NCBI GenBank assembly: GCA_028713995.1
Contig: JAQTNF010000042.1
Location: 1-34,349, forward strand
Length of the DNA: 34,349 bases
Direction: 5' to 3'
From: Deltaproteobacteria bacterium
Lineage (GTDB): Bacteria > Myxococcota_A > Polyangia > JAAYKL01
In this document: positions 1,527 to 23,559 of the stretch, piece after piece
Numbering within the stretch: position 1 is the stretch's first letter
Layout of the letters: each line of letters starts with the position of its first letter
Notes under the pieces: generated by a model
Database searches by the model: none
Told to the model about the DNA's origin: nothing
What the model saw: the letters and a program-made list of their open reading frames with translations, nothing else
Program-made: the position numbers and the translations under genes

Positions 1527-1559
1527 TCAAATGCTCCTTCGATGACCGCGGCCTTTGGC

Positions 1560-2264: not shown

Positions 2265-2303
2265 CGCCCGTTCCCCTGCGCTCCTGCGCGCGTGTTTCGC
2301 CCT

Positions 2304-2975
2304 CTATGCGCCATCCCGAAAATCGAGCCGGTGGAGCGAGAGTCCGACCGCCGCGAGGTGCGCCGCGAGCTCCTTGACGGTCGCCGCAAGCATCCGCTCG
2401 ACAGCCGGGCTCGCGCTCCACGCCACGATCGAAACGTCGATTCCCGAGACCCTGACATCGAAACGCACCTCTCCGATTTCTCCGAGGTCGAGCGTCAACG
2501 CAACGCTCGGCTTCCCTGCCGCCATCGAGCTGAGCAAGACCCGTACCAGCCTGCGGGACTGCCGGCCGAAGCGTCCTCCAGGCATCGCACCCGCGGCGAT
2601 TCCGGCCGTCCCACACGGTTCCGGCGGCGCCCCGGGCACGCACATCCGCCCGTCATTGCTGGACTTTTCGCGTCCGGACAGGCGCCTGTCGCGACGCGCG
2701 GCCCGTTCCTCGGCGTTTTCGACCATCGCGTCCCGGCTCCGCTCGTCCGGTTCGCCTCGATCGGCGTTGTCCGGGCAAGCGCCATTCGGCTGACACCACG
2801 GGGGCAGATTCCCGACATCGGTCCGGTTCCCGCCGCGGCCGTCCGCCTGCACCGAAGCCTCGCCGAGCAGGGCGAAGAACGCCTCGCGGTCGGAGGCCCT
2901 GGGACACGGCACGGCCCCGGATAGGATGTCGCGCGAACCGGAAACAGCAGCGGCGCTCTGCGGAATCGACGTCAT
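2304..2975 (-). CDS. fliK: Short FliK-like hook-length control protein
   Basis: FliK measures hook length and switches type III export specificity. The identification rests on the C-terminal part (about 140-223), where LDLGEIGEVRFDVRVSG followed by a helical segment matches the pattern of the FliK C-terminal domain (substrate-switching region), and on the position just before flgD and flgE. The N-terminal half (about 1-130) is low-complexity and charged with no recognisable fold, as in other FliK proteins. At 223 residues it is much shorter than enterobacterial FliK (about 400), so the molecular ruler part would be short. Its ATG overlaps the stop of the MotE-like gene by 4 bp. Confidence 0.7.
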   Translation of the reverse strand: MTSIPQSAAAVSGSRDILSGAVPCPRASDREAFFALLGEASVQADGRGGNRTDVGNLPPWCQPNGACPDNADRGEPDERSRDAMVENAEERAARRDRRLSGREKSSNDGRMCVPGAPPEPCGTAGIAAGAMPGGRFGRQSRRLVRVLLSSMAAGKPSVALTLDLGEIGEVRFDVRVSGIDVSIVAWSASPAVERMLAATVKELAAHLAAVGLSLHRLDFRDGA

Positions 2976-3718
2976 CTGACGCCACCATCCGCTTGGCCGT
3001 CGCGCCCTGAGGCAGGGGACTCCCCGATCATCGCGCGGGCCATGGACGCCGCCTTGTCCGGGTCCATGGCGCCGAGCATCTCGGCCGTCAGGCGCGAGCC
3101 CATCCGTTGCAGCACGGTGATGGCGTCTCCAGTGGGGAGCGACGCGAGCAGGCCGGCGCCGCTGGCCGCGCGCATCCCCTTGATGGTGGCCACGAGCTGG
3201 CCGATGCGGACCTCCCGCTCCTCCGCGGTCAGGGCGCCCGTCTTGCCTTCCCGGACGTTCTCCCGGCGGCCCTGCAACTTGGCCAGCATGGACGCCGTCT
3301 CGTCGTGCAGCTTCCTGAGCTCCTGTTCGTTCATGAGCGCGGCGGCCTCGAGCCGTTCGAGCATCTGCTCCCTTTGGATGAGGTCGCGCTCCCTCAGATC
3401 GAGGGCGCGAACGCGCTCGGCCAGCGCCTCGGCCAGCGCCTCCATGGCGTCCTCACCCGTCGTGGGCCCTGCCGCGGGCGCCGCAACCCCGGCCCGGGGT
3501 CTGTCCGTGCCGGCGTCGCGCTGGGCGGCCGTATCCCCGGCGTCGTGCTTCGCGGCCGTTCCGGCGTCCGCCCTGTCCTCTGTCGTCTCGACCGCCGCGG
3601 CCGAGGTCGCCTCGGTCGCACCCGCCTTCACCGGCTCGGCCTTCGAATTGCAGCCGGGCGTCGCCGCGAGCGCCAAAGCCGCCACGCACATGGTCCATGC
3701 GATACGCACCGTGCTCAC
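2972..3718 (-). CDS. MotE-like flagellar coiled-coil lipoprotein
   Basis: The 248-residue protein starts with a lipoprotein-type signal (VAALALAATPGC), then an Ala/Asp/Thr-rich linker, a long coiled coil (about 90-165, RVRALDLRERDLIQREQMLE) and a C-terminal helical domain resembling the MgtE N-terminal fold (LQRMGSRLTAEMLGAMDPDK). This coiled coil plus MgtE_N-like arrangement, just after fliJ, is typical of MotE, a periplasmic chaperone for MotC studied in Sinorhizobium. The membrane anchor here seems to be a lipid rather than a transmembrane helix, although the lipobox is not ideal (Pro at -2). The start is GTG, overlapping the fliJ stop (GTGA). Confidence 0.65.
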   Translation of the reverse strand: MSTVRIAWTMCVAALALAATPGCNSKAEPVKAGATEATSAAAVETTEDRADAGTAAKHDAGDTAAQRDAGTDRPRAGVAAPAAGPTTGEDAMEALAEALAERVRALDLRERDLIQREQMLERLEAAALMNEQELRKLHDETASMLAKLQGRRENVREGKTGALTAEEREVRIGQLVATIKGMRAASGAGLLASLPTGDAITVLQRMGSRLTAEMLGAMDPDKAASMARAMIGESPASGRDGQADGGVR

Positions 3719-4158
3719 CTGCGCACCTTCCTCGTGGTGACGAGATCATCGATCTCCCGCTGCCCGCGCAGCCGATCGCTCCGCTGCAACCTTGCGGTCA
3801 CGGTCGACAGGAGGAGCTCCATCTGCCGCGCCTTGATATGGGTGTCGAGGAGTCGCTTCCGGGTCGTTTCCACCTCGTTTTCGGCCGCGGCCTCCTCGTC
3901 CCTCTTCCGTGCGGCCTCCTCCTCGGCCGAAAGCACGCATCCCAGGGCCAGCTCCAGATCCTCGCGCGTGACCGGGCCCTCCATGGAGCCGCGCACGTCC
4001 GACATCTCGCCCTCCGCGACCCGCTCGGCGCACCTCGCCTCATCCGCGCTGCGCTCGCGCCGGACCATGGCGAGCCCCACCTCGGCGCCCGCCCGGTCGC
4101 GCTCCTTCCGGCGGAAGTCGAGCAGCCGCTCGACCCTCTCCAGCGCCTTCCGGCTCAT
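3715..4158 (-). CDS. fliJ: Flagellar export chaperone FliJ
   Basis: FliJ is a small coiled-coil protein of the export ATPase complex; it inserts into the FliI hexamer and escorts substrates. The 147-residue product is almost wholly charged helix with the FliJ-type opening KALERVERLLDFRRKERD and a long E/R-rich coiled coil. The ATG at 4158 was chosen because it overlaps the fliI stop as ATGA and gives the usual length near 150; the reading frame stays open further upstream, but only as a shadow of fliI. Primary sequence conservation in FliJ is weak, so the call rests on length, coiled coil and position between fliI and the MotE-like gene. Confidence 0.85.
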   Translation of the reverse strand: MSRKALERVERLLDFRRKERDRAGAEVGLAMVRRERSADEARCAERVAEGEMSDVRGSMEGPVTREDLELALGCVLSAEEEAARKRDEEAAAENEVETTRKRLLDTHIKARQMELLLSTVTARLQRSDRLRGQREIDDLVTTRKVRR

Positions 4159-5510
4159 GAATCCCCCTTCAGCCCGCGGCCCGGTGCCGCGCCCTGCCTG
4201 GCGAGGTCGAACATCGCATCGACCGCATGGGGCAGGCTCGCCGCGTCGCCGAGCGCCTGCTGCTGGAACTTCTCGAACACGGGAAGCAGCTTGCGCGCCC
4301 GATCCACGACCGGATCGCTCCCCGGCTGGTACGCCCCGATCCGGATGAGATCCTCGGCCTGACGGTGGGCCGCGAGAAGAGCCATGATCTGGCGCGCGGC
4401 CGCGAGGTGCTCCGGAGCGACGACCTGCGGCATGAGGCGGGATGAGCTCGCGAGCACATCGACCGCCGGCAGGAGGCCGCGGTTGGCCATGTCTCGGGAG
4501 AGGCACACGTGGCCGTCGAGCAGGGCGCGCGTCGCGTCGGCCACGGGGTCGGACATGTCGTCGCCCTCCACCAGCACCGTGTAGACCGCGGTGGTGCAAC
4601 CCTCGTCGTCGCAGCCCGCGCGCTCGAGCAGCCTCGCGATCTCCGCGAACACGGAAGGGGGGTAGCCCTTGCTGGCCGGGATCTCCCCGGCGGCGAGGCC
4701 CGTCTCGCGCAGCGCCATGGCGAAGCGCGTGAGCGAGTCGAGGAGCAGGAGGACCTTCGCGCCCCGCGCGCGGAAGAACTCGGTGATGGTCGTGGCGAGG
4801 AGCGCGCCGCGGATTCGCGCGAGGGGCGCCTCGTCACCCGTCACGGCCACCGTCACGGTGCGGGCCCGGTTCGCGTCGGTGATCGAGTCCTCCACGAACT
4901 CGCGCACCTCGCGACCGCGCTCGCCGATGAGCCCCACGACGCACACGTCGGCGTCGCTGTTCCTGGCGATCATGGAAAGGAACGTGCTCTTGCCCACTCC
5001 CGCGCCCGCGAACACCCCGATCCTCTGGCCGAGGCCCACGGTGGGCATGGCGTCGATCACGCGGATGCCGGTCGAGAACGGCATCCTGATGCGGGCGCGA
5101 TCGAGCGGGGGCACGATCTCGCCGCGCAAGGGGCGACGGTCCGTGAGCGCCGGCAGGGGGCGCCCGTCGAGCGGCCGGCCGAGTCCGTCCACCACGCGTC
5201 CGAGCAGCCCCTCGCCCACCGGGACCAGGGCGTCGCGGCCGCGCGTGCCGACCGCACAGCCCGGGCCTACGCCGTCGAGAGGGCCGAGGGCCATGAGGAG
5301 CACGTCGCGTCCGTCGATCCCGATCACCTCGGCCGGGATGGGCGAAAGCCCACCGGACGGCCACAGGTCGGCCTGCTGCCCCACCACGCAGGCCACCCCC
5401 CGGCAGCGCACGACCGGCCCGGCCACCCCGACCACGCTTCCGTGCACCTCGAGCGCGGACAGCCGGCGCAGCCGGTCGCCCAGGTCTTCGCCCTCGATGC
5501 CCAAGGTCAC
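4155..5510 (-). CDS. fliI: Flagellar export ATPase FliI
   Basis: FliI is the cytoplasmic ATPase of the flagellar type III export apparatus, related to the F1 beta subunit. The 451-residue protein shows an N-terminal beta-barrel region (about 20-90), Walker A GAGVGKST (about 169-176), the family motif LIGERGREVREFVED, the Walker B strand VLLLLDSLTRFA and SKGYPPSVF. The C-terminal helical domain includes DLIRIGAYQPGSDPVVD. The GTG at 5510 is taken as start because it overlaps the fliH stop (GTGA) and gives the normal family length; the frame is open far upstream, but that part overlaps fliH. Confidence 0.97.
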   Translation of the reverse strand: MTLGIEGEDLGDRLRRLSALEVHGSVVGVAGPVVRCRGVACVVGQQADLWPSGGLSPIPAEVIGIDGRDVLLMALGPLDGVGPGCAVGTRGRDALVPVGEGLLGRVVDGLGRPLDGRPLPALTDRRPLRGEIVPPLDRARIRMPFSTGIRVIDAMPTVGLGQRIGVFAGAGVGKSTFLSMIARNSDADVCVVGLIGERGREVREFVEDSITDANRARTVTVAVTGDEAPLARIRGALLATTITEFFRARGAKVLLLLDSLTRFAMALRETGLAAGEIPASKGYPPSVFAEIARLLERAGCDDEGCTTAVYTVLVEGDDMSDPVADATRALLDGHVCLSRDMANRGLLPAVDVLASSSRLMPQVVAPEHLAAARQIMALLAAHRQAEDLIRIGAYQPGSDPVVDRARKLLPVFEKFQQQALGDAASLPHAVDAMFDLARQGAAPGRGLKGDS

Positions 5511-6175
5511 GCGCCACCTCCGCTCTGCTCGAACAGGTGCCTGAGGCGCTGCAGGCGCGTCCGCACGCCCGCGTCGACCTTCCGCACGTCGGACTCGACC
5601 ACGCAGCCCGCTTCGTCGAGAGCGGGATCCGGCCGCACCGCGACCTCCGCGTCGCCGGCCAGCCCGGCGAGAAGCCCCTTCCCTTCCATGCGCCTGTACA
5701 GATCCGGATGGAGCCGCACCCTCAAGGGACCCTCGCCGATGAGGAGCTCGAACGCGCCGCGCACCAGCTCCGCGACCCTCTCCGGCTGCGCCTCGATGGC
5801 GCCGGCCGCCAGCTCTCCGGCAACGACGAAGCCGAGCTCCACCGTCTGCTCCTGCGCGCGCCGCCGCTCGAGCTTCCCGGCCTCGGCGACCTGCGTGATG
5901 GCCCGCGCGAGCAGATCGAGCGAGCGATCCATCTCCTCGATCCTGACCGCCAGCTCGGGCTCGGGTCGGGCCCGTCCCTTTGCCTCGGCCTCCGGCTGCT
6001 CCGGGGCGGCCCGGGCCGGATCCTTGGACGCGCCTGACCGGGCGTCTGACGGCTTGCCCGTGGCAGTGGCGAAGGCCGGATGCTCCGAGGGAACCGGTCT
6101 CTTCACGATCCAATCGACGGCCTTGGAGCCCGCGGGACGCCCCTGTGCGGCCGGCGGCCATGATCCGGTGCTCAT
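5507..6175 (-). CDS. fliH: Flagellar export ATPase regulator FliH
   Basis: FliH binds FliI and anchors it to the C-ring and export gate, and restrains its ATPase activity. The 222-residue product has a variable Pro/Ala-rich N-terminus, a helical middle (about 85-145) and a C-terminal domain of the FliH/V-type ATPase E-subunit kind (GPLRVRLHPDLYRRM, AEVAVRPDPALDEAGCVVES, typical of the GGCxVE-type ending). It lies in the invariant order fliG-fliH-fliI. Start ATG at 6175 overlaps the fliG stop as ATGA. Confidence 0.9.
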   Translation of the reverse strand: MSTGSWPPAAQGRPAGSKAVDWIVKRPVPSEHPAFATATGKPSDARSGASKDPARAAPEQPEAEAKGRARPEPELAVRIEEMDRSLDLLARAITQVAEAGKLERRRAQEQTVELGFVVAGELAAGAIEAQPERVAELVRGAFELLIGEGPLRVRLHPDLYRRMEGKGLLAGLAGDAEVAVRPDPALDEAGCVVESDVRKVDAGVRTRLQRLRHLFEQSGGGA

Positions 6176-7197
6176 ACGAGCTCCTCCCCGCCGCGGCCGG
6201 CGATGACGATCTTGCCCTCGGCCTCGAGGCGCAGGGCCATGTCCACGATCTCCTGTTGCGTGCGTTCCACGTCGCTCAGCTTGACCGGCCCCATGGCCGA
6301 GAGGTCGTCGATGAGGATCTCCGCGGCGCGCTTGGACACCGAGGTCAGGATCTTGTCCTTGAGCGCGTCGCTGGCCGTCTTGAGGGCGAGCAGGAGCTGG
6401 TCGTTGCTGACCTCCTTGACGAGCGTCTGCATGCCGCGCCCCTGCACGTTGACGAGGTCCTCGAAGCTGAACATCTGGCGCCGCAGCTTGAACGCCAGCC
6501 CCGGATCGCCCTCGCCGATGCCGCCCAGCAGATCCTCGGCCTCGGCCATGGGCAGCCGCTGCAGGATCGACGCGGCCCGGCCGATGCCGTCCACCGGGAT
6601 GCCGCTCTCGGCCTCCACGTTCGAAAGCTGCTCGCGCACGGCCCGGTGCAGGGCGTCGATGGTCTGCGTGGGGATCTGGTCGAGCGAGGCGAGCCTGAGC
6701 ATCACCTTCACGCGCAAAGCGGTCTCGAAGTGCGCCAGCACGCTCGCCGCGTACGCCGCCGAGATCTCGGAGAGGATCGCCGCGATCACCCGCGGGTTCT
6801 CGCCCTCGAGCACCGTCGCCACGGCCTTGGCGTTGCGCCGCTCGAGATCGGAGAACGGCACCTCGGTGTCGCGCGTCTGGAAGATGATCTTGCTCTCCTC
6901 CCGCCCGAGGGAGCGCTGGGCGAGGCGCTCGATGTACGCGCTGCCCTCGCCGGTGGGGAGCACCGGCTCGCGCGTGGCGGCCAGGAAGCCCTGGTAAGCG
7001 GCGGTCAGCCTCGGCCCGGTGGGCGCGAACTCGCGCGAGGCGAGCTGGTGCAGGGTCCTGATGTCCTCCGGGTCGAGGTGGCGCAGCACGCGCGAGACGG
7101 CCTCCTCTTCGAGCGAGAGGACGAGCAACAGGGCGCTCATCGGCTTGTCGATGGCTTGCGTCGCGGTCATCGGGGTCATCGGGGTCATCGGGGTCAC
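6172..7197 (-). CDS. fliG: Flagellar motor switch protein FliG
   Basis: FliG is the C-ring protein that docks to FliF and takes torque from the stator. The 341-residue product contains the N-terminal FliF-binding domain (SALLLVLSLEEEAVSRVLRH), the middle domain (about 120-200, with the helix-turn region LARLDQIP-like LASLDQIPTQTIDALH) and the charged C-terminal domain ending in DLSAMGPVKLSDVERTQQEI. GTG at 7197 overlaps the fliF stop (GTGA) and is preferred. Three more in-frame ATG codons follow at 7188, 7179 and 7170, produced by a 9-bp tandem repeat (ATGACCCCG), so the true N-terminus is uncertain by up to 9 residues. Confidence 0.96.
   Translation of the reverse strand: MTPMTPMTPMTATQAIDKPMSALLLVLSLEEEAVSRVLRHLDPEDIRTLHQLASREFAPTGPRLTAAYQGFLAATREPVLPTGEGSAYIERLAQRSLGREESKIIFQTRDTEVPFSDLERRNAKAVATVLEGENPRVIAAILSEISAAYAASVLAHFETALRVKVMLRLASLDQIPTQTIDALHRAVREQLSNVEAESGIPVDGIGRAASILQRLPMAEAEDLLGGIGEGDPGLAFKLRRQMFSFEDLVNVQGRGMQTLVKEVSNDQLLLALKTASDALKDKILTSVSKRAAEILIDDLSAMGPVKLSDVERTQQEIVDMALRLEAEGKIVIAGRGGEELV
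7168..7197 (-). repeat. 9-bp tandem repeat carrying four candidate fliG starts
   Basis: The minus strand reads GTGACCCCG, then ATGACCCCG twice, then ATGACCGCG. Each unit is an in-frame start codon followed by Thr-Pro. Unit gain or loss would not shift the frame, but it would change the distance between the fliF stop and the fliG start. Confidence 0.85.
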
Positions 7198-8822
7198 TCT
7201 CCGGGCTTCTGTTCGGGCTTGCGCGCCTCGCGCAGCCACGCCTTGAGCACGCGCGACGCGCTCTCACTCTCGTCCATGAACGCCTGCCGCACCTCTCCCA
7301 CGAGGGCGTTCGGCGAGCCCGGGTTCGCGTTCCCGTTCTGCCCCCCGGCGAGCGCGAGCGCCCGCGGCTGCTGCATGAGCATCTCGAGCTCGCGCACGTT
7401 CCTCGGCAGAGGCAGCATCTCGGCCGGGATCGATTGCGCCTCTGCGCGCCTGCGAAGGGCGAGGAGCGCGAGGAGTATGGCGGCGGCCACGGCCACCCCG
7501 ACGCCGACCGGCAGCCACCTTTGAAGGACCGGCGGCCCCGGGATCGGGACGGGCTCGACCACCTCGGGTGCCTTAAACGGCACGGACTGCACGTTGATCG
7601 TGTCCCCGCGCTTCGCGTCGAACCCGATGGCCCCGCGCACGGCCGTCTCGATCTTGCGCAGCTCCTCGGATGAGCGGGGCACGAACGGCGTGCCCTCCTT
7701 GTTCGTCCCGCCCACGAGGACCGCCACCGAGAGCCTCGTCAGGAGGGCGCCGGGCTGCACGATGTGGCTCACGACCTTGTCCACCTCGTAGTTGCGCGTC
7801 TCGGTCTCGCGCTTCGTGCTCGCGCCCTCGGCGGACGCGACCGGAGGGATTCCTCCCGGCAGGTTGGAGCGGGCGCCCGGCGTGCCCTCGGCGCCGCGCG
7901 ACGTCGAACCGGTCGTTTCGGTCTCGCGCTGCTCGCTGCGCAGCACCGATCGCTCGGGATCGAAGTGCTCCTCGGTGCTCTCGCGCTTCGAGAAGTCGAA
8001 GTCGGCGGCCACGCGCACCACGGTCGCATCGGGGCCCACGATCTTGCCGAGCATCTCGTGCACCCGCGCCTCGGTCTCGCGCTCGAAACGCTTCTTGAAG
8101 TCCATCCCGCTGTCCCCGGCCTCGTACTCGCCGCCGCTCGATGAAAGCAGCCGGCCGCGCGTGTCGACCACCGTGATCTGATCGGGGCTGAGCCCCTCCA
8201 CGCTCGACGCGACCAGGTGCACGACGGACCGTATCGCCCCCTCGGAGAGCTCCCGGCCCTGCTTCAGCTCGACCACCACGGACGCCTGCGCCGGAGACGA
8301 CTGGGCGCCGAGCATCGAGCGCTTGGCGAGCACCAGGTGGACCCGCGAGCCGCGGACCACCTCGAGCCGTCCGATGGTCCGGGCCAGCTCCCCCTCGAGC
8401 GCGCGCGTGAACGCCACGCGCTCCTCGAACTCGGTCATGCCGAAGCGCTGCTGGTCAAAGAGCTCGAACCCCACTCCGCCGCCGGACGGCAGGCCCGCGC
8501 CGGCCAGCTCGAGCCGCAGCTCGTGCACCTGCTCGGCGGGCACGAGGATCGCGTTGCCCTCCCCCTCCAGGCGGTACGGCACCCGCTTAGCCTTGAGCTG
8601 GGTCACGATGGACGAGGCGTCCTGCGCGCTCAGCCCCGAGAAGAGCACCTGCATTTCGGTGCGATCCATCACGGCCAGCATGGCTCCGCCGGCGATCGCC
8701 ACGACGAGCGTCAGGATCATCCCCACGCGCATGATCCGCGGCAGCCTCTGCCAGAAGCCGCGGCCGTCGGCGAGGGCTCTGCTCAGCCATTCCTTGGAAA
8801 CGGGCTCAACCTGTTCGGGCAT
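7194..8822 (-). CDS. fliF: Flagellar MS-ring protein FliF
   Basis: FliF forms the inner-membrane MS-ring on which rod, export gate and C-ring are built. The 542-residue product has an N-terminal membrane helix (about 33-51, VGMILTLVVAIAGGAML), the first ring-building motif region (QVLFSGLSAQDASSIVTQLK, VPYRLEGEGNAILVP, FELFDQQRFGMTEFEERVAF), a large periplasmic part with a low-complexity insert (about 290-335), a second membrane helix near 440-460 (GVAVAAAILLALLAL) and a C-terminal cytoplasmic tail for FliG binding. The ATG has GAGGAG about 9 bases upstream, and fliE ends 14 bp before it. Confidence 0.97.
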   Translation of the reverse strand: MPEQVEPVSKEWLSRALADGRGFWQRLPRIMRVGMILTLVVAIAGGAMLAVMDRTEMQVLFSGLSAQDASSIVTQLKAKRVPYRLEGEGNAILVPAEQVHELRLELAGAGLPSGGGVGFELFDQQRFGMTEFEERVAFTRALEGELARTIGRLEVVRGSRVHLVLAKRSMLGAQSSPAQASVVVELKQGRELSEGAIRSVVHLVASSVEGLSPDQITVVDTRGRLLSSSGGEYEAGDSGMDFKKRFERETEARVHEMLGKIVGPDATVVRVAADFDFSKRESTEEHFDPERSVLRSEQRETETTGSTSRGAEGTPGARSNLPGGIPPVASAEGASTKRETETRNYEVDKVVSHIVQPGALLTRLSVAVLVGGTNKEGTPFVPRSSEELRKIETAVRGAIGFDAKRGDTINVQSVPFKAPEVVEPVPIPGPPVLQRWLPVGVGVAVAAAILLALLALRRRAEAQSIPAEMLPLPRNVRELEMLMQQPRALALAGGQNGNANPGSPNALVGEVRQAFMDESESASRVLKAWLREARKPEQKPGE

Positions 8823-8836
8823 CTAGGGGCTCCTCG

Positions 8837-9139
8837 CTACACGCTCATCCGCATGATTTCGTGGTACGAATCGAGCAACCGGTTCCGGATGGCGCCCACG
8901 AGGCGCAAGGAGATCGCGGACTCCTCGACGGCCAGCATCGTCTCATGGATGTTGTTCGTCTCGCCGGCCGCGAAAGCCGCGTCCATGCTCTCGGCCTGCT
9001 TCATCGTCGCGTTCGCCTTGGCCAAATAGTCGGTGAACAGCTCGGAGAACCCGCTCTCCCGGGGTCTCGCCGCCGCGCCGGGCTGGATCGCGCCGAACTC
9101 GGGGGTCATCGTGATGTTGCCGATGGGCATCTTCCTCAC
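8837..9139 (-). CDS. fliE: Flagellar hook-basal body protein FliE
   Basis: FliE connects the MS-ring to the rod. The 100-residue product matches FliE in length and in its C-terminal helix (NNIHETMLAVEESAISLRLVGAIRNRLLDSYHEIMRM). The start is GTG at 9139, overlapping the flgC stop (GTGA); an ATG three codons later (9130) is an alternative. It sits in the standard flgB-flgC-fliE-fliF order. Confidence 0.95.
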   Translation of the reverse strand: MRKMPIGNITMTPEFGAIQPGAAARPRESGFSELFTDYLAKANATMKQAESMDAAFAAGETNNIHETMLAVEESAISLRLVGAIRNRLLDSYHEIMRMSV

Positions 9140-9573
9140 TCTCCGATCTTGATTGACGACTTGGCCATGCCGGTGGCCGCCTGAAGGGCCGTGACGCCCG
9201 CGTCATAGGCCCGCGAGGCCATGATCATATTGACCATCTCCTCGACCGCGGTGACGTTCGGGTAGGCCACGAACCCGTTGGGATCCGCGTCCGGGTGCCC
9301 CGGATCGTAGACCATGCGCGGCGGATTCTGATCCTCGACGATGTCGACGGTCCTCACGCCGGGGATCTCCCGGGCCAGGGGATCGTTCGCGAGCTCATGG
9401 AACCTGAGGTACACGGGGTCGGTGCCGAAGACCGGGTCCTTGCGCCGGTACGGTCCGCCCTCGGGCGTCCGCGTGGTCTCCGCGTTGGCCAGGTTGGCCG
9501 CGGTCACGTTCAGCCGCGTGCGCTGCGCGGTCAGCGCGCTCGAGATGATCTCCATCGCACTGAAGACGTTCAT
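9136..9573 (-). CDS. flgC: Flagellar proximal rod protein FlgC
   Basis: FlgC is one of the proximal rod subunits. The 145-residue protein shows the rod-protein N-terminus (ISSALTAQRTRLNVTAANLANAETT), the FlgC-type PYRRKDPVF segment and the C-terminal helix (VNMIMASRAYDAGVTALQAA). Length agrees with the family (about 135-150). A strong ribosome binding site (AAGGAGG) lies 5 bases before the ATG. It follows flgB after 13 bp. Confidence 0.96.
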   Translation of the reverse strand: MNVFSAMEIISSALTAQRTRLNVTAANLANAETTRTPEGGPYRRKDPVFGTDPVYLRFHELANDPLAREIPGVRTVDIVEDQNPPRMVYDPGHPDADPNGFVAYPNVTAVEEMVNMIMASRAYDAGVTALQAATGMAKSSIKIGE

Positions 9574-9586
9574 GGCAACCTCCTTC

Positions 9587-9979
9587 TCACCGATCGGTGG
9601 CCGCGTAGCGCAGCCCGCCCAATCGCAGGGCGACGAGCTTGGCCACGGCCTCGAACCGCACGGCGTTGGCGGTCATTCGCGCCATCTCGCGATCGAGGCT
9701 CACATAGTTGAGATCGTTGCCGGGCGTGACCTCGCGCTGCTCCACGACCTCGAAGCCGTTTCCGCCGCCTTCCTCCGACGCCCGGATGTGGCTCCCGTCG
9801 GTCGTGGCGAGGGGCAGGACGTGCCTCCCGCCGTCGCTCTCCCCGGGGCGCACGAGCTCGCGTGGAACGTACCCGGGGGTGTCCACGTTGGCGATGTTCG
9901 CGGAGATGGCGTTCTGCCGCGCCACGTGGAAGTCGAGCGCCCGCGCCATGCCGTCGATGCCCGAGAAGATCGTGTTCAT
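9587..9979 (-). CDS. flgB: Flagellar proximal rod protein FlgB
   Basis: FlgB is the first rod subunit after FliE. The 130-residue product carries the rod signature near the N-terminus (ALDFHVARQNAISANIANVD, then TPGYVPREL) and the C-terminal helix of the family (DREMARMTANAVRFEAVAKL). ATG at 9979 overlaps the stop of the upstream unknown gene as ATGA; the frame is open further upstream but only as a shadow of that gene. A glycine-rich central loop (EEGGGNGFE) replaces part of the usual middle. Confidence 0.95.
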   Translation of the reverse strand: MNTIFSGIDGMARALDFHVARQNAISANIANVDTPGYVPRELVRPGESDGGRHVLPLATTDGSHIRASEEGGGNGFEVVEQREVTPGNDLNYVSLDREMARMTANAVRFEAVAKLVALRLGGLRYAATDR

Positions 9980-11541
9980 CGCGCCGCCTTTCGCTTGCCC
10001 TTGAGCCCATCGACCTCGAGCCGCAACGCGGTCGTCTGCGCGTCGATCCGGGCGATCACGCCCCACCCGCCGCTGCCCCGCCCCGCCTTCACCATCAGCC
10101 GCGCGTAGGTCTCGCGATCGCCCCTCTCGAGCGCCGCCCGCCCGGCCTGATACAGAACGTACGCCGGCAGGGCATCGAGATTCCGCGCCGGTGCGCTCAC
10201 GGCCGCGACCAGCTCGGCCTGGGTCATGACGCGCCCGAGCCAGCCGGCCAGCTCGGCGGGGATGCGTGTTCCGGCGGAAACGATCGCGGCGCTCAAGCCC
10301 CTGACCGCTTCGCCGGGCTTGTCGCCCCGCCGCAACGACGCCTCGGCCACGGCGATCTCGTCCTCCAGGGTGACTCCGGCGAGCAGCCCGCGCGCCGCGA
10401 CCAGATCGATCTTCGCGCCGGCCCAGTTGCCTTGCTGGAGCAGGGCGTGGCCCCGGACCCGGTGCAGGCGACCGCCGATCCAATCCGGGAGCGGCTTCGC
10501 CAGGAAAAAGGAGGCGATCGCCGAGCCGCGCACGTGCTCACCCTCCGCCAGGTACGCCTCGGAAACGAAGGGCGCGAGATCCGCGCTGCGCGCCATGTCC
10601 TCGCTTCCGGACAGCCGCTCCGCGATGCGGGCCAGGACCGTCGCGAAGCCCGAGCGCGACATCTGTCTGAAGATCGGATCGAGCAGGGATGCGATCGCCG
10701 GATCGTCGGCGACCACCTTCGAGCTCTCGATGACGGATTTCGTGATCTGGAAGCGCCCGCCGCTTCGCAGGGCCGACTCGATCCGGCCGAAGGCGAGCCG
10801 CCTCGCGAGCGCCTCGGCCCTCTTCTCGACGTCCGCGGGCGGCCGGGACGCGAGCAGTGAGCGCAGATCGGCGAGGGCCAGATCCCGATCGCCGAGGGCG
10901 CTCGAGCAGAACGCCGACAGGTAGATCGCCTCGAAGGTCGCGGGATCGACCGCTTCGGTCGGGCGACGCGGGCACACCGTGGCCTTGGGTCCGAGCGCCA
11001 CCCACTCGAGCAGCGCCAAGCGGGCGCGATCGAGCAGGTTCTCGCGTCCTTCGGCGGCCACGTTCACGGACAGGATCTCCCGCGCCCTGTCGAACTTCCC
11101 GGCCGCGAGCGCCTCGGTCACGTCGGCAGACATGGGCTCGAGACCTTCGCCCTCGCGGAGCGTGCGCTGCACGAGGCGCTCCGGACGCAGGCGCCCGATG
11201 AGCACGTGGGTCATGCCGCGCCTGCGCTCCGTCGCGAACTCGAGGATGTCCTTGTCGGAAAAGATCTCGACCATCATGCCGGTCGTGGCAAGCGGCACGA
11301 GCCGGTATTTGAGCGGCGTGACGGACAGGGCGAGCTCGACGCGATCCTCGTGCCGCGGATCCCACCGGGCGAAGCGCAGCTCGACGCCCTGCTCGTCGGG
11401 CGACTTGCGCACCTCGACCTTCGGATCGTCGAGCATGACCACGACCAGCTGCTCGAACGAATCCAGCCTCTCGTCGTCCGCACGGGCCGCAACCGCGGCG
11501 AGCGCGACGAAGATCAATGCCGCGTGGACGCTGCACCTCAT
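9976..11541 (-). CDS. Unrecognised secreted helical-repeat protein heading the flagellar operon
   Basis: I do not recognise this 521-residue protein. The ATG at 11541 starts a convincing signal peptide (MRCSVHAALIFVALAAVAARA, cleavage expected before DDERLD). Residues about 25-120 look beta-rich (FEQLVVVMLDDPKVEVR, VELRFARWDP). The rest (about 125-521) is Ala/Leu/Arg-rich paired helices resembling degenerate TPRs (ALGDRDLALADLRSLLASRP, HALLQQGNWAGAKIDLVAAR). It overlaps flgB by 4 bp (ATGA), so it is probably the first cistron of the flagellar operon and may act in the periplasm in basal-body or motor assembly. In-frame starts further upstream (ATG 11571, GTG 11619) lack a ribosome binding site and a signal-like sequence. 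Function is unknown. Confidence 0.75.
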   Translation of the reverse strand: MRCSVHAALIFVALAAVAARADDERLDSFEQLVVVMLDDPKVEVRKSPDEQGVELRFARWDPRHEDRVELALSVTPLKYRLVPLATTGMMVEIFSDKDILEFATERRRGMTHVLIGRLRPERLVQRTLREGEGLEPMSADVTEALAAGKFDRAREILSVNVAAEGRENLLDRARLALLEWVALGPKATVCPRRPTEAVDPATFEAIYLSAFCSSALGDRDLALADLRSLLASRPPADVEKRAEALARRLAFGRIESALRSGGRFQITKSVIESSKVVADDPAIASLLDPIFRQMSRSGFATVLARIAERLSGSEDMARSADLAPFVSEAYLAEGEHVRGSAIASFFLAKPLPDWIGGRLHRVRGHALLQQGNWAGAKIDLVAARGLLAGVTLEDEIAVAEASLRRGDKPGEAVRGLSAAIVSAGTRIPAELAGWLGRVMTQAELVAAVSAPARNLDALPAYVLYQAGRAALERGDRETYARLMVKAGRGSGGWGVIARIDAQTTALRLEVDGLKGKRKAAR

Positions 11542-11554
11542 GGCAGGCGGCAAA

Positions 11555-11570
11555 CGCAAGTCGCATGCCA
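11555..11570 (-). promoter_or_regulatory. Sigma-54-like -24/-12 promoter of the flagellar operon
   Basis: The minus strand reads TGGCATGCGACTTGCG, which matches TGGCACG-N4-TTGCA at 10 of 12 positions, with invariant GG and GC at the right spacing. The predicted transcription start is near 11544, only about 3 bases before the chosen ATG (11541), so the message would be almost leaderless. The neighbouring gene encodes a sigma-54 activator. Confidence 0.55.
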
Positions 11571-11682
11571 TCACGACCCAAGGGCGGACGCTTCGAAAGC
11601 GGGCGATTTCCCCGGCCACGGACCGCGGGAAAGGGGCCGGATTGTCAATGGGGTGACGGTCTTCGCGCAGGAAATATGACGG

Positions 11683-12681
11683 TCAACCGGTGGCGTCGAG
11701 GGTGTCGGGAACGGCGCGCTTCAGCTTCTCGACGAGCGTGGTGCGGTTGAGGCCGAGCAAGTGAGCGGCCTGGTTCTTGTTCCCCGAGGTCTTGCGCAGG
11801 GCCTCGCCGATGTAGTGGGCCTCGATCCTGCGCAGCACGGCCTGGAGGTCGATCCCGTCGCCCGTGAGCGGGCTCACGAAGTCGCCGATCTCCCCGCTCG
11901 AAAGCGCCTCGACATGGGGGAGATCGTGCTCCTCGATCACCGGGCCGGCCGCCATCAGCACGGCGTGCGCCATGGAGTTCTCGAGCTCTCTCACGTTTCC
12001 GGGCCAGTGATGCGCCTCAAGCCGGCGCAGCGCGCCGGACGAAATGCCTTCGATATCCCGGCCGTAGCGTTTCGTCTCCTGCACAAGAAAGTGCCGGGTG
12101 AGCAGCTCGATGTCGCACAACCGCTCCCGAAGCGGCGGAATCCGCAGCTGGATCACGTTCAACCGGTAGTAGAGGTCCTGGCGGAAGAGCCCGTCGCGCA
12201 CCATGCGCGCCAGATCCGCGTTGGTCGCCCCGATCACCCGCACGTCCGCGCGCCGCACGCGAGAGTCGCCCACGGGCGTGAACTCCTTGAATTGCAGCAC
12301 GCGCAGGAGCTTGGCCTGGAGCGCGAGCGGCAGCTCGCCGACCTCGTCGAGGAAAATCGTGCCGCCCTCCGCCACCTGGAAGGAGCCTTCCCGGCTTCGC
12401 AACGCGGTCGTGAATGCGCCTTGCACGTGACCGAAGATCTCGCTCTCGAGCAGGTCCCGCGAGATGGCGGCGCAGTTGACGGCCACGAAGGGCTTGCGGC
12501 CGCGGAGGCTGGCGCGGTGTATGCCCCGCGCGAGCAGCTCCTTGCCGGTGCCCGTCTCGCCGCAGATGAGCACCGTGCAGTCCGTGGGCGCCACGCGCTT
12601 GGCCCGCTCGAGAGTCGCGAACAGTGAGGAAGAGGTTCCGATCATGTCTTCACAGAAACCCGCGGTCCTGTCGTCGCTCAT
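11683..12681 (-). CDS. Sigma-54-dependent activator (AAA+ and Fis-type HTH, no receiver)
   Basis: The 332-residue protein is an enhancer-binding protein that would remodel sigma-54 RNA polymerase. It has a complete AAA+ domain: Walker A GETGTGKE (41-48), Walker B GTIFLDE (107-113) and [20 protein letters not shown] Fis-type helix-turn-helix follows (297-320, [21 protein letters not shown]). There is no N-terminal receiver or sensor domain. The sigma-54 contact loop reads GAFTTA instead of GAFTGA (88-93). ATG 12681 is chosen because AAGGAG lies about 6 bases before it; an in-frame start at 12750 falls inside a sigma-54-like promoter. Position next to the flagellar operon suggests a FleQ/FlrA/FlgR-like role; this is inferred. 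Confidence 0.88.
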
Positions 12682-12743
12682 CCCGCTCTCCTTTTTCGAC
12701 CCGTTCGAAGCTCCGCTCTCGCCCTCGTCGACAGCGAGGGCTT

Positions 12744-12759
12744 TGCACAAACGGTGCCG
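12744..12759 (-). promoter_or_regulatory. Sigma-54-like promoter of the activator gene
   Basis: The minus strand reads CGGCACCGTTTGTGCA. It keeps the GGCAC core and TGCA with correct GG-to-GC spacing (9 of 12 consensus bases). The predicted start near 12733 gives a leader of about 52 bases containing the AAGGAG site of the 12681 start. It would imply autoregulation. Confidence 0.45.
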
Positions 12760-13208: not shown

Positions 13209-14465
13209 ATGAAGACACGCACAAGAACCTCACGACAGCCGTCAGCCGGCTCGATTTCCGGCCGACGCCACCTCTTTCGGACGCGAATGGCCGCGTTGCG
13301 GTTCGTGCCGGGACCATGGCTCCTTGTCGACAGAGAGACGACCGCCGTTCTTGCCGCGAATCGGCCGCTCGAGCAGATCCTCGGAGTCGACAGATCGTGC
13401 CTGTTCGGGCATCCGGTCGCGACGATCACATGCGAAGGGGAAGTCTCGGGTTGGGCCCTCAAGGCACTCGACGCGGACATGATCCGCCTCCCCGGTCTCC
13501 ACGAGGACGTGGGGCTGCGGCGTGCGGACGGTTCTCCGATGCCGGTCGACGTCCACGTCTCGCACCCGCCCGTCTTTAAAAGAAGCCGCGTGGCCTTCTG
13601 TCTCGTGTCCGACCGCACCGAGCAGCGCCGCCTGGAGGGCGAGCTCATCGCGAAGCACAAGGAGATCAGGCGCGCGTTCGCCGAGCTCGAGAGGAAATCC
13701 GCGGAGCTCGCGCTGGCCCAGGAGACCCTCAAGCGGAAGAATCGGGAGCTCGGCGCGTTGTCCGTGGAGCTGAGCAGGGCGGGCGAGCTGGCCACCATCG
13801 GCGAGGTGACGGCGGAGCTGGTGCATCAGTTCTCGAACCCCCTCGCCGCCGCCGTGGGAACCGTGCGGCAGATCGCGAGGCTCACCGCCCCGGACGAGCG
13901 GCCCGAAATCGCCACGGCCGTCGCGGTGCTCCGGAAATCGCTCGACCGCCTGACCGACACGATGGCGGAGGCGCGCCGCCTCTACCGGAGCTCGCGGCCG
14001 CAGGACAAGCCGAAGACCGCGTTCGATCTGGCCGGACAGGTGGAGGGGGCCCTCGCGCTCATGCAGCAGCGCCTGGAGTTGAGCCGGCTCATCGTCCAGC
14101 TCCCGCCCGACCTGCCGAAGATCGCGGGACGCCCCTCCCAGATCCAGCACGTCATCGTCAACCTGCTCGAGAACGCGGTGGAGGCGGCGGGCCCCGGCGG
14201 TACGGTACAGATGCGCGCGTCGCGGATCGATGGGAAGGTCGTGTTCGCGGTCGGGGACAGCGGACCGGGCGTCCCGGAGCCCCTGAAGAGCAGGATTTTC
14301 GAGCCGTTCTACACGACGCGTCCTCAGGGAACCGGGCTGGGGCTCGCCCTGGTCCGCCGCAACCTGGACGCGGACGGCGCAACCATAGAGGTGGGAAAGT
14401 CCGCCCACGGCGGAGCGGAATTCCGGATCGCATTTCCGGTCGCGCACCGGGAAGGGGAACAATGA
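13209..14465 (+). CDS. PAS sensor histidine kinase
   Basis: This 418-residue soluble kinase has no membrane helix. It holds a PAS-like domain (about 30-140, PWLLVDRETTAVLAANRPLE), a coiled coil (140-190), a dimerisation/phosphoacceptor helix with His206 (LVHQFSNPLAAA) and an ATPase domain with N box VNLLENAVEA (Asn322), G1 GDSGPGVP, F box FEPFYTT and G2 GTGLGLAL. The layout resembles FleS/FlrB/FlgS kinases that act with flagellar sigma-54 activators. It overlaps the next receiver gene by ATGA, which makes that its likely partner. The ATG at 13209 has only a weak ribosome binding site (GTGAGA); an ATG at 13287 is possible. Confidence 0.88.
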   Translation: MKTRTRTSRQPSAGSISGRRHLFRTRMAALRFVPGPWLLVDRETTAVLAANRPLEQILGVDRSCLFGHPVATITCEGEVSGWALKALDADMIRLPGLHEDVGLRRADGSPMPVDVHVSHPPVFKRSRVAFCLVSDRTEQRRLEGELIAKHKEIRRAFAELERKSAELALAQETLKRKNRELGALSVELSRAGELATIGEVTAELVHQFSNPLAAAVGTVRQIARLTAPDERPEIATAVAVLRKSLDRLTDTMAEARRLYRSSRPQDKPKTAFDLAGQVEGALALMQQRLELSRLIVQLPPDLPKIAGRPSQIQHVIVNLLENAVEAAGPGGTVQMRASRIDGKVVFAVGDSGPGVPEPLKSRIFEPFYTTRPQGTGLGLALVRRNLDADGATIEVGKSAHGGAEFRIAFPVAHREGEQ

Positions 14466-15580
14466 TGGGCGAAACAACTGAGAGCATTCTGGTAGTCGAC
14501 GACGATCCCGAGGTGCTGTCGGCCCTGCACGCCGAGCTGTGCCAGCAATACGAAGTGACCCCGGTCGGGAGCGCGGAGCAGGCGCTGGTCTACCTCCAGA
14601 ACAAGGAGTTCGATGTGGTCATCAGCGACGTGCGCATGCCAGGCATCGACGGGCTGAGCCTCATCAAGCAGTGCGCGATCCGCTACCCCAGCATGGTGCG
14701 CATCATCCTCACCGCATTCGACGGCTGCGACGTGCACGAGGCCGCGCTCGGCCCGCACGGAGCGTACAAGCTGGTCAAACCGTGGGGCGACGACCTGATC
14801 ATCACGCTGGAGAACGCCCTGCGGCAGAGAAAGTTCCTGCTCGCGACGCGGCGAAGGCTCGCGCTCGAGTCGGAGATCCTCGAGTTCGACCAGCGCCTCG
14901 GCCCGAATCTCGACGTGGCCGAGATCGTCCATCGGACTGCGACCGAGATGACCCGCCTGCCCGAGGTGATCGCCGTCGCGATCTATCGCCTCAGCGACCG
15001 CAAGACGCCGTCTCTCGTGGAGCTGGTCTCGGCCCACAACGAGGCGGTTGCGCCGGACCTCCTGTTCGGGAGGCGGACGCCCATGGCGTCCCGGGGCAAC
15101 TACTTCTACTCGGTGCCGATCGGCGGATGGGACACCTTCGAGTTCGCGCTCGCTTTGCAGTTGACGGAAGCCACCCCGGAGATCACCCAGTCTCTGGACT
15201 TCGTCGGACGCCAGGCCCACCGCGCGATCCTGGTCTCCAAGGCCAGGGAGCGCGAGGCGGTCTCCGGGACGGAGTCGCGGCCGGTCCGCCAGTCGCGCAT
15301 GCCCTCCACTCCGTCTCTCGTCCCGCCGCACTGGGTGGCCGACACGCTCATCACGCCCGCGACCATCGTCGCGAGCATCGCCGACGATCTGACCCGCCTG
15401 TCCCGGGAGATGAGGCACTGGGCGAACAGAGACTCGAAAACCTCACCGACCCTCGAGGAGCTGCACGATCTGTACGCCGACCTGATGACGGCCTGCTCGC
15501 ACCTGTCGATCATCATGGACAAGCTGCGGGCCCAGGAGCGGGCGCTGCTCGAGTTCGCGGCTTCGGAGCCGTCGGCATGA
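14462..15580 (+). CDS. Receiver protein with GAF-like C-terminal region, no DNA-binding domain
   Basis: The 372-residue protein begins with a full receiver domain: acidic pocket DDD near 13-15, phosphoacceptor Asp56 (VVISDVRMPGIDG) and Lys106 in KPW. Receivers with KPW are common in HD-GYP-type regulators, but no HD-GYP domain is present. Residues about 115-245 may be a GAF-like sensor fold (ATEMTRLPEVIAVAIYRLSD, NYFYSVPIGGWDTFEFALAL). The rest (about 275-372) is mainly helical. There is no AAA+ or HTH output, so it would act by protein contact, possibly on the separate sigma-54 activator. It overlaps both the kinase and the ATPase gene by 4 bp. Confidence 0.82.
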   Translation: MMGETTESILVVDDDPEVLSALHAELCQQYEVTPVGSAEQALVYLQNKEFDVVISDVRMPGIDGLSLIKQCAIRYPSMVRIILTAFDGCDVHEAALGPHGAYKLVKPWGDDLIITLENALRQRKFLLATRRRLALESEILEFDQRLGPNLDVAEIVHRTATEMTRLPEVIAVAIYRLSDRKTPSLVELVSAHNEAVAPDLLFGRRTPMASRGNYFYSVPIGGWDTFEFALALQLTEATPEITQSLDFVGRQAHRAILVSKAREREAVSGTESRPVRQSRMPSTPSLVPPHWVADTLITPATIVASIADDLTRLSREMRHWANRDSKTSPTLEELHDLYADLMTACSHLSIIMDKLRAQERALLEFAASEPSA

Positions 15581-16839
15581 AGCTGACCGTCGCGGTGGGC
15601 GGCGGCAAGGGCGGCACCGGCAAGAGCCTGGTGGTCGCCAACCTGGCCGTGGCCATCGCGCAGTCCGGCAAGCGAGTGATCGCGGTCGACGCCGACCTCG
15701 GCGCCGCGAACCTGCACACCCTCCTCGGCATCGCACGGCCGGCCGCCCTGCTCGAGCACTTCGTCTCGCGCAAGGTCGAGCGCCTCGACCAGGTGCTCGT
15801 CCCGACCCAGCAGCCCGGCCTCTCGGTGGTCTGCGGCGGCATGGCCGTCCTCGGCAGCGCCAACCCGAACCACGCGCAGAAGCAAAAACTCATCCGCCAC
15901 ATCCACAACCTCCCCGCGGACGCGATCGTGGTGGACGTCGGGGCCGGATCGTCGTTCAACGTCCTCGACCTCTACAACTCCGCGGCGATCAAGCTGGTCG
16001 TGCTCACGCCCGAGATCACGTCGGTCCACAACGCCTACGGTTTCCTCAAGGCCGCCTTGCTCAGGCGCATCGCGGGCGCCGTCGCGCCCGGTGCGAGGGA
16101 GCAGCTTGAGACGGGGGACGCGGGAAAGGGCGCCGAGCTCATCAAGGACATGATCGGCAGGCTGGAACGCTTCGACCTGGAGCAGGGCCGGATCGCGTCG
16201 CGCGTCCTGTCCGAGTACCGCATCCGCCTCGTGGGCAACATGCTCGGCGCGCCCAAAGAGGCGCATGTCATCGAAGCCGTCTCACGCCTCGTGACCGACC
16301 ACCTCCACGTCGACGCTCCGATCGCCGGGCTCCTGTGGCGCGGCGACAAGATGCTCCGCTCGGTGAACGAGCGACGCCCCTTCATGCTGTCGGCCGGCGT
16401 CGAGGCGAACGCGATCACGTTCCGCGACATGGCCCAGGGCCTGCTCGCGATGGCCCCCGAAACCGACATCGACGTCGATATGCGTCTGCCGCCGGCGAAG
16501 ACCTACGAGCGGGAGAGCCCGCGTTTCCCGGTCTACCTGCCGGCGACGCTGAATGCCGACGGCCGCTCGCTGGCGGGCGAGGTGCGCAACGCTTCCGAAG
16601 GCGGCTTCCTCGTGGCGTTCCGTGAGCCCATGGCCGGCGTGGCCAGCGGTCGCCTGCGCGTGGGACCGGCCGCCGACGGGTTCGAGATCGCCGTGTCGGT
16701 TCGGGAGTGCCACCGCGATCCGAGCGGTCTCGAAATCGGCTTCCAGCTCGTCGACGCGACCGAGGACGTGCGGGAGGCGATGACAAGGCTCGTCGCGCGC
16801 GCCGCGGTCTCGAGCGCCCTGCCCCACCACGAGATCTGA
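15577..16839 (+). CDS. MinD/FlhG-type ATPase fused to a C-terminal PilZ domain
   Basis: Residues 1-300 form a MinD/ParA-family ATPase with deviant Walker A GGGKGGTGKS (8-17), the A-prime motif VDADLGAAN (Asp38, Asp40) and Walker B VVDVGAGSS (Asp120). FlhG, the family member that sets flagellar number and place, is the best match given the flagellar context. The C-terminus (about 310-400) has both PilZ signatures for cyclic di-GMP: RxxxR (Arg312, Arg316) and N338-x-S-x-x-G343. The enzyme would therefore bind both ATP and cyclic di-GMP. The FlhF-binding N-terminal tail of classical FlhG is absent, and no flhF is in the window. ATG 15577 overlaps the previous stop (ATGA). Confidence 0.85.
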   Translation: MKLTVAVGGGKGGTGKSLVVANLAVAIAQSGKRVIAVDADLGAANLHTLLGIARPAALLEHFVSRKVERLDQVLVPTQQPGLSVVCGGMAVLGSANPNHAQKQKLIRHIHNLPADAIVVDVGAGSSFNVLDLYNSAAIKLVVLTPEITSVHNAYGFLKAALLRRIAGAVAPGAREQLETGDAGKGAELIKDMIGRLERFDLEQGRIASRVLSEYRIRLVGNMLGAPKEAHVIEAVSRLVTDHLHVDAPIAGLLWRGDKMLRSVNERRPFMLSAGVEANAITFRDMAQGLLAMAPETDIDVDMRLPPAKTYERESPRFPVYLPATLNADGRSLAGEVRNASEGGFLVAFREPMAGVASGRLRVGPAADGFEIAVSVRECHRDPSGLEIGFQLVDATEDVREAMTRLVARAAVSSALPHHEI

Positions 16840-16878: not shown

Positions 16879-18186
16879 ATGAAATACGAAGAAGAGCGCG
16901 ATTCCATTCCTCCCATCGTGCTGTACGTCAGCAACGACGCGGCGCACCTCAACATGGTGCGCAAGGCGCTCGGGGAGGTGGGATTCAGCGTGGTCACCTC
17001 GCGCAGCGCGGCCGAGGCCCGCGACCTCGCCCGGACGCCGGAGATCGACGCGGTCGTGTGCGACTACGACATGTCGCAGGTGGACGGAGTCAGCCTGTGT
17101 CTCGAGATGCAAGGCGAGCGCGTGGAGCCGACGCCCATGCTGGTGGTGAGCGAGCATTGGGCGCCGGCCGTGCTGGCGCGCTGCCTCAAGGCCGGGCTGG
17201 CCGGCCTGCACGTCAAATCCGAACCGCCCGAGCTCCTTGTCGACCGGGTGCTGTCCATGATCAAGGACGAGGGCAAGCGGGAGCTCATCGAATCGCGGGT
17301 CGCCAAGCGCCAGGTCGGCGGCGGAACCGATCCGGTCACACGGATCGGCACGCGGCAGCACTTCCAGCGAAGGCTCAACGCCGAGTCCGGAGCGAGCTAC
17401 CGCGACGAGTCCAGCCTCTCGGTCGTCATCATCGAAATCGACCGGTTCAGCCTCATCGAGGAGCGCCACAACCGTGAGCTGGCCGAGGGCGTCCTCGTGG
17501 CCGTGGCGCGGCTCGTGGAGAGCGAGATGCGCAGCCGCGACAGCATCGCCCGCTTCGACGACCACACGTTCGCCGTAGTGCTCCCCGATACATCTCGCGA
17601 GGTCGCCTCGGAGTTGGCCCAGAGGCTGCGCCAGCTCTTCGCCAGCTCCGAATACGGGGACGTGGACCACCCGATCTCGATCCGCGCCAGCCTGGGCGTG
17701 GCCTGTCGGCCGGCGGGCGATCTTTCGTCCGTGGACGATCTGGTCGATCAGGCCGTACGCGCCTGCTCCGCGGCCGCGGCCATGGGCGGCGATCGCGTGG
17801 TCTGCGACGATACGCTCACCGGAAGGCCCCTCATCCTCCTCGTCGGGTCGCCGGAGAAGTCGTGCAAGGGTCTCATGGCGGGCTTCCTGGAGTGCAAAGT
17901 CGAGGTGCGGGTCGCGCCTTCGACGGCCGAAGCCCGTAGCGCGCTGGAGTCGATCCCGGTGGCCATGATCGTGGCCACTGACTACGTCGGCAACGACAGC
18001 GGAGTGGATTTTCTCGCGTGGGCGCGCGGCAAATTCCCGGGAATGCGGCGGGTCCTGGTCGCCGAGAATGTGACGAGCGAGCTCATGGAGAAGGCCGTCA
18101 ATCAGGCCGCGATCCACCACTTCCTGGCCCTGCCCTGCGACATGGCGTCCTTGCCGACCGTACTCGAGCAGATGATCTTCACCTGA
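16879..18186 (+). CDS. Receiver / degenerate GGDEF / receiver protein
   Basis: The 435-residue protein has a first receiver domain (about 12-130; Asp62 in VVCDYDMSQVDG), a GGDEF-like fold (about 150-312) and a second receiver-like domain (about 317-433; Asp368 in IVATDYVG). At the place of the catalytic GGDEF loop the sequence reads DDHTF (227-231), and the substrate-binding FKxxND segment is also altered (IDRFSLIEERHN), so cyclic di-GMP synthesis is not expected. The second receiver lacks the usual Lys (LALP for xxKP). It may act as a scaffold or nucleotide sensor beside the PilZ-fused ATPase. It starts 39 bp after that gene, behind a G-rich site. Confidence 0.82.
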   Translation: MKYEEERDSIPPIVLYVSNDAAHLNMVRKALGEVGFSVVTSRSAAEARDLARTPEIDAVVCDYDMSQVDGVSLCLEMQGERVEPTPMLVVSEHWAPAVLARCLKAGLAGLHVKSEPPELLVDRVLSMIKDEGKRELIESRVAKRQVGGGTDPVTRIGTRQHFQRRLNAESGASYRDESSLSVVIIEIDRFSLIEERHNRELAEGVLVAVARLVESEMRSRDSIARFDDHTFAVVLPDTSREVASELAQRLRQLFASSEYGDVDHPISIRASLGVACRPAGDLSSVDDLVDQAVRACSAAAAMGGDRVVCDDTLTGRPLILLVGSPEKSCKGLMAGFLECKVEVRVAPSTAEARSALESIPVAMIVATDYVGNDSGVDFLAWARGKFPGMRRVLVAENVTSELMEKAVNQAAIHHFLALPCDMASLPTVLEQMIFT

Positions 18187-19053: not shown

Positions 19054-19138
19054 GCGTTTCGCCTGACTCGCTTTCTGGTATCTTCGCAGGAGTCGTTAAG
19101 ACAGTATTCGTTTTGGAATTCCAGGCGAGGTGGGAATC

Positions 19139-23558: not shown

Positions 23559-23559
23559 G

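Follow-up and report, generated by a model that had tools for sequence, protein, structure and literature searches.

The change between swimming and a sessile existence is governed chiefly by cyclic di-GMP (c-di-GMP), and the number and site of flagella are set by FlhG-type ATPases, which, like FleN and MinD, form ATP-dependent dimers with altered partner or membrane binding. To our knowledge the two have so far been found to meet only indirectly, in the FleQ-FleN pair and in YcgR-like brakes, and we know of little work on the flagella of Myxococcota. According to the accessible text of one report, FleN inhibits FleQ in Pseudomonas, FleQ itself binds c-di-GMP, and the K19A variant of FleN loses efficient dimerization and hydrolysis (PMC10723142). 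PilZ domains undergo a substantial conformational change on binding c-di-GMP, as described in the accessible part of PMC10333796, and FlhG is defined, in the accessible sections of a 2025 FlhF/FlhG review, by an N-terminal DQAxxLR helix which stimulates FlhF (PMC12826062). Here we describe a locus in which a FleN-like ATPase and a PilZ domain lie in one chain, within a window (the whole stretch of DNA analysed) of 34,349 nucleotides. The relevant features are as follows.

237..9986, minus strand: hook-basal-body operon flgB, flgC, fliE, fliF, fliG, fliH, fliI, fliK, flgD, flgE
11683..12750, minus strand: sigma-54 activator with AAA+ and Fis-type HTH, without a receiver (Sigma54_activat, 8e-68)
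13209..14465, plus strand: histidine kinase, first gene of an apparent operon (HATPase_c, 5.2e-22)
14462..15580, plus strand: response regulator with a receiver domain (Response_reg, 1.4e-18)
15577..16839, plus strand: MinD/FlhG-like ATPase fused to PilZ, 420 aa (Pfam, predicted structure, fold matches)
15577..16464, plus strand: ATPase domain, residues 1-296 (deviant Walker A GGGKGGTGKS, D38/D40, D120; FleN-like fold)
16051..16236, plus strand: stretch K158-N221, holding a 47-residue helical insert (alignment, predicted structure)
16465..16515, plus strand: disordered linker, residues 297-313 (pLDDT <50 in the AlphaFold2 model)
16510..16797, plus strand: PilZ domain, residues 312-407, with R312/R316 and N338xS340xxG343 (PF07238, 39.4 bits; Foldseek)
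16879..18186, plus strand: receiver-degenerate GGDEF-receiver protein, 39 bp downstream of the ATPase-PilZ gene (Pfam; FDDHTF)

The ATPase-PilZ gene runs through 420 codons from an ATG at 15577 to a stop ending at 16839, with no internal stops, and encodes a 420-residue chain. The first-pass annotation had described a deviant-Walker ATPase joined to a PilZ domain with both ligand motifs, and each part was recovered. In the ATPase part, which matched Pfam CbiA (4.2e-13) and ParA (4.8e-12), alignment located K11, K16, D38, D40 and D120; we take the first four to occupy the same positions in E. coli MinD, and in our own alignment K11 and D40 fall on K19 and D48 of FleN. The nearest solved structures by sequence were FleN/FlhG (1.7e-17), and using VIA-align with the AlphaFold2 model (mean pLDDT 86.5 over the whole chain) the top structural match of the ATPase part was FleN 5j1j_B (Z 32.9, rmsd 1.9, 244 residues), followed by FlhG and then MinD. 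Between the K158 and N221 columns the protein has 62 residues compared with 15 in canonical FlhGs, and the resulting 47-residue insert is common to its subfamily but found in none of 18 canonical FlhGs. At the other end of the chain, residues 312-407 matched PF07238 with 39.4 bits (E 7.9e-10) against a gathering score of 22.5, so the region 310-400, which the first-pass annotation had proposed as the decisive profile check, scores above threshold, and R312, R316, N338, S340 and G343 make up complete RxxxR and NxSxxG motifs at exactly the residues it had given. When residues 305-420 were folded separately (pLDDT 73.9), Foldseek returned PilZ structures alone at E <= 0.001, mostly c-di-GMP-bound and including Alg44, BcsA, MotI/DgrA, YcgR and MapZ, although a sequence search of the PilZ part alone against the PDB gave no matches. 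FlhG/FleN proteins are marked by a C-terminal membrane-targeting helix; here, in the AlphaFold2 model, the chain ends in a helix (396-414) C-terminal to PilZ, which may or may not target a membrane. From its sequence, the ATPase-PilZ protein probably senses c-di-GMP.

The ATPase-PilZ gene is tightly packed with its neighbours, as both the histidine kinase and response regulator genes, and the response regulator and ATPase-PilZ genes, share 4-bp ATGA overlaps. Downstream, the receiver-GGDEF-receiver protein has FDDHTF at its active site, in keeping with the degenerate GGDEF neighbour noted earlier, but retains RxxD (RSRD) at the position of the product-binding I-site. This combination suggests a protein that may bind c-di-GMP instead of producing it and that, by analogy with known degenerate-GGDEF receptors, might be the operon's second c-di-GMP receptor. 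The sigma-54 activator gene is divergent from the operon, and beyond it the flagellar operon also reported by the first-pass annotation is real, with Pfam naming FlgE, FlgD, FliK, FliI, FliG, FliF, FliE and two rod proteins, and FliH found as well. Scans for sigma-70 and sigma-54 promoters around the ATPase-PilZ operon gave matches at chance level. Positions 9976-11619, between the sigma-54 activator and flgB, encode a 521-547 aa protein with no Pfam matches, a homologue of which (25% identity) follows the same activator in another genome (L140 in G008).

The source genome has an FlhG elsewhere. An flhA-flhF-flhG-fliA order spans a contig break (end of C127, start of C94) which splits FlhF, and directly 3' of FlhF lies a 287-aa ATPase, the FlhG, then a FliA-type sigma factor; the ATPase-PilZ gene has no flhF neighbour. 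The same order, whole or up to the fragment end, is present in the fusion-bearing genomes G002, G004, G005, G007, G011, G013 and G032. Maximum-likelihood trees set FlhG apart from the insert-bearing ATPases, a 100/100 branch dividing the FlhGs from the 57 other rows, the ATPase-PilZ protein among them. A DQAxxLR helix is also absent from the ATPase-PilZ protein, whose first strand in the AlphaFold2 model begins at residue 3, but since no clear DQAxxLR was found in the canonical FlhGs of its own family either, this absence alone is not decisive. Those family FlhGs (L141, L247-L253) share an LPRVxRG-like N-terminal motif instead. With a canonical flhG beside flhF, a separate clade and the 47-residue insert, FlhG was rejected as the identity of the protein; the earlier description of a MinD/FlhG-type ATPase-PilZ fusion with a flagellar connection stands, but not its identification as the flagellar placement ATPase FlhG, and the reading becomes that of a second, flagellum-linked FlhG-like ATPase.

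Compared with described systems, the ATPase-PilZ protein shares with FlhG/FleN its fold (Z 30-33), a deviant Walker A, lysines and aspartates placed as in FleN/MinD, and the flagellar linkage, but differs in forming its own clade, coexisting with a canonical FlhG, carrying the insert and a PilZ tail after the ATPase, and lacking both the DQAxxLR helix and the FlhF neighbour. MinD/ParA proteins share the ATPase core, whereas the ATPase-PilZ gene is linked to flagella rather than to division or partition and adds the PilZ tail. YcgR, MotI/DgrA and MotL share the PilZ fold, the ligand motifs and a c-di-GMP input to flagella, but lack an ATPase, being either stand-alone or YcgR-N/PilZ chains. FleQ-FleN likewise joins c-di-GMP, a MinD-type ATPase and flagella, although its c-di-GMP receptor is the transcription factor FleQ, whereas the one predicted here lies in the ATPase chain. 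Finally, BcsQ-BcsR-BcsE of cellulose secretion places the MinD-type ATPase BcsQ in a c-di-GMP-sensing complex, but through separate chains with a non-PilZ receptor, and serves cellulose instead of flagella.

Surveyed across genomes, as the first-pass annotation had suggested, the fusion recurs in at least six families of the class. Orthologues of identical architecture and 46-50% identity were found in five other genomes of the window's family, and the same architecture in at least five further families; because these orthologues come from other genomes, the fusion is not an assembly artefact, and an assembly chimera was rejected. Fusions were seen in class families f1, f4, f14, f17, f25 and f27, and also in MAGs labelled Myxococcaceae and Sandaracinaceae, while in a phylum sample of 187 genomes full-length fusions were confined to the window's class. 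A single-protein query against genome contigs gave no matches, and homologues were recovered with an alignment query. Insert-bearing relatives are spread over Myxococcota, Nitrospirota, Desulfobacterota and others, with C-termini that vary between none, a 'VQTE' tail, DnaJ plus HTH, or PilZ. Among these, a single clade in maximum-likelihood trees (SH-aLRT 97 with 107 rows; 100/99 with 66 rows) unites the window protein and the PilZ fusions with many short homologues from flagellar clusters. In the FlhG-rooted tree both earliest branches of the clade carry PilZ, namely L132/L133/L181, where it is weak or degenerate, and the window's own family, and at least four changes of PilZ state are needed, so that the simplest history is one old fusion followed by several losses. 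Judged from these sequences, the PilZ tail looks ancestral in the clade and was lost several times. No PilZ gene was found beside a PilZ-less ATPase, as a split form, in eight genomes among the matches listed (E of about 1e-8 and better).

Other insert-bearing proteins were observed during this survey. Two PilZ fusions, L179 (G084) and L180 (G094), have altered Walker A motifs, RGRGGVGKS or RGRRGVGKS, in which Arg replaces the signature lysine, and are possibly inactive ATPase relatives going by these motifs; L180 lies upstream of flgBC-fliEF. A paralogous MinD-like ATPase with the insert (L002 in G000:C16, L187-L206, L232-L246), whose C-terminal regions read from sequence as DnaJ-like and RodZ-type HTH, is widespread in the class without a flagellar link. 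A third insert-bearing lineage, in family f7 (L137, L139, L222-L226), has several members with a C-terminal 'VQTE' domain and in some genomes lies next to sigma-54 activators and flagellar operons.

We compared the clade with the occurrence of flagella in 192 genomes of the class, taking a genome that carries the P-ring gene FlgI as flagellated. FlgI was present in 42 of 42 clade-bearing genomes versus 45 of 150 without the clade (Fisher 2.8e-18), kin genomes being counted separately without phylogenetic independence, which makes this and the following p-values optimistic; the pattern recurs inside several families. Genomes with only the DnaJ-HTH paralogue had FlgI in 11 of 32 cases. Within the window's family all seven fusion genomes were FlgI-positive (G007, where a contig end cuts the fusion ahead of PilZ, was counted by its ATPase part), while five of seven genomes without the fusion were negative, the exceptions being G008, which has another insert-bearing ATPase near a flagellar sigma-54 activator, and G009, which is 71% complete. 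Likewise, at least two flagellar genes lay within about 8 kb of 19 of 46 clade members, as against 5 of 93 other homologues (4e-7) and 1 of 30 DnaJ-HTH paralogues (1e-4). The clade thus behaves as expected of a flagellar protein, being present in FlgI-positive genomes only (42/42) with a neighbourhood enriched in flagellar genes. Flagellins, fliD and fliS lie beside the fusion in L048 and L173, flgB-flgC-fliE-fliF and sigma-54 activators are near it in L180, resembling the arrangement in the window, and GGDEF genes accompany it in the window, L048, L057, L126, L173 and L178, those flanking it in L048, L057, L126 and L173 looking active. None-the-less, no flagellar genes were found within about 8-10 kb of the five closest orthologues (G002, G004, G005, G011, G013), so the gene neighbourhood is not fixed. 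Furthermore, the flagellar link persists in PilZ-less clades of f12 and f9, which indicates that the sensor is dispensable for part of the function.

The predicted fold, intact nucleotide and ligand motifs, conserved fusion, lineage apart from FlhG and strict co-occurrence with flagella were all computed. On balance we consider it probable that the ATPase-PilZ protein serves the flagellum specifically, as a second FlhG/FleN-like ATPase with a predicted c-di-GMP receptor of its own, and couples c-di-GMP to flagella. By such a mechanism the ATPase domain would be brought to dimerize by ATP, as FleN/FlhG/MinD are, and c-di-GMP would close the PilZ domain over the flexible linker to alter dimerization, hydrolysis or partner binding. 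In the window's operon the signal might be set by the histidine kinase/response regulator pair together with the degenerate-GGDEF protein, with rising c-di-GMP expected to change, and probably reduce, the assembly of flagella, the activity of the motor or the expression of flagellar genes. Candidate partners are the motor/C-ring, the sigma-54 activator or an export/assembly factor, and gene neighbourhoods support the stator/C-ring and the sigma-54 activator about equally as targets. More tentatively, we propose that Myxococcota possess an ancestral second flagellar ATPase in which the fused PilZ lets c-di-GMP directly gate the FlhG-like ATP/dimer cycle; if true, flagellar number, placement or activity would be set within a single chain by ATP state and c-di-GMP.

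The first-pass annotation knew of no described example, and we found no description of an FlhG/MinD-PilZ fusion in the open-licence literature, covering 5.39 million papers. Neither PilZ nor c-di-GMP comes up in the accessible part of the FlhF/FlhG review of December 2025. The ATPase and PilZ modules are known, but their conserved combination and the clade of second flagellar ATPases appear to be undescribed, pointing to an undescribed direct link between c-di-GMP and flagella. A conserved chain with both parts offers a testable molecule for second-messenger control of a positioning ATPase, and marks out, in flagellated Myxococcota, a second lineage of flagellar ATPases that is as yet uncharacterised.

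Four other readings were weighed. The protein could be a FleN-type anti-activator that, as an ATPase dimer, docks on the AAA+ domain of the sigma-54 activator encoded nearby, with PilZ and not the activator sensing c-di-GMP, which is the FleQ-FleN logic with the sensor shifted to the FleN-like partner. Structurally it matches FleN best, also in FleN-FleQ complexes, the fusion has a sigma-54 activator gene no more than 4 kb away in the window, L052, L144, L179 and L180, and the Pseudomonas precedent described in the accessible text of PMC10723142 supplies both FleN inhibition and c-di-GMP binding of FleQ. However, the window's activator lacks a FleQ-type N-terminal domain in Pfam, the majority of fusions have no sigma-54 activator inside 4 kb, and FlhG-FlrA/FleQ binding is characterised in monotrichous species only, according to the accessible sections of PMC12826062, and we regard this reading as rather unlikely. 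Alternatively, the PilZ domain could act like YcgR/MotI as a motor brake or stator regulator, with the ATPase placing or loading it at the motor. Genes for the stator, confirmed by Pfam, abut the fusion as motA-motB-fusion in L057 and fusion-motA-motB in L178, and a PilZ-less member as fliL-(PilZ-less member)-motA-motB in L134, and the PilZ fold neighbours include MotI/DgrA and YcgR. Against this, the YcgR-N-like partner domain of YcgR/MotI is missing, and several clade members beside flagellar genes kept the ATPase and lost PilZ, which indicates that PilZ is not the core effector; a brake of this kind also seems unlikely to us.

PilZ might instead no longer bind c-di-GMP and have become a protein-interaction module only. 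Among 23 aligned members R312 is invariant (23/23), R316 is present in 22 and 18 match Pfam PilZ at E <= 0.01, but the five closest full-length orthologues (G002, G004, G005, G011, G013) have Nx[AG]xxG in place of NxSxxG, making c-di-GMP binding there less certain, though still possible, and the domain is degenerate in some deeper members (L132, L181, L014). As the complete RxxxR and [DN]xSxxG set is retained in nine of the 23, the window protein and eight other divergent members, loss of binding is an improbable explanation. That the protein is the organism's FlhG under c-di-GMP control, as first proposed, is scarcely credible, for although its nearest solved relatives are FlhG/FleN and its neighbours flagellar, a canonical FlhG adjoins FlhF both in this genome and in every family member with the fusion that was checked, and the protein has its own clade, the 47-residue insert and no N-terminal enhancer helix.

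Elsewhere in the window, three ORFs (19130-20968, 27659-28294 and 33348-34226) are secreted- or lipoprotein-like, with long Asp/Ser/Thr(Gly) repeats past the signal region. Two adjacent, nearly identical large membrane-protein-like genes occupy 22014-23558 and 23560-25101, and a 300-nt block of 100% identity at a spacing of 1531 marks this pair (22014-25101) as a recent tandem duplication.
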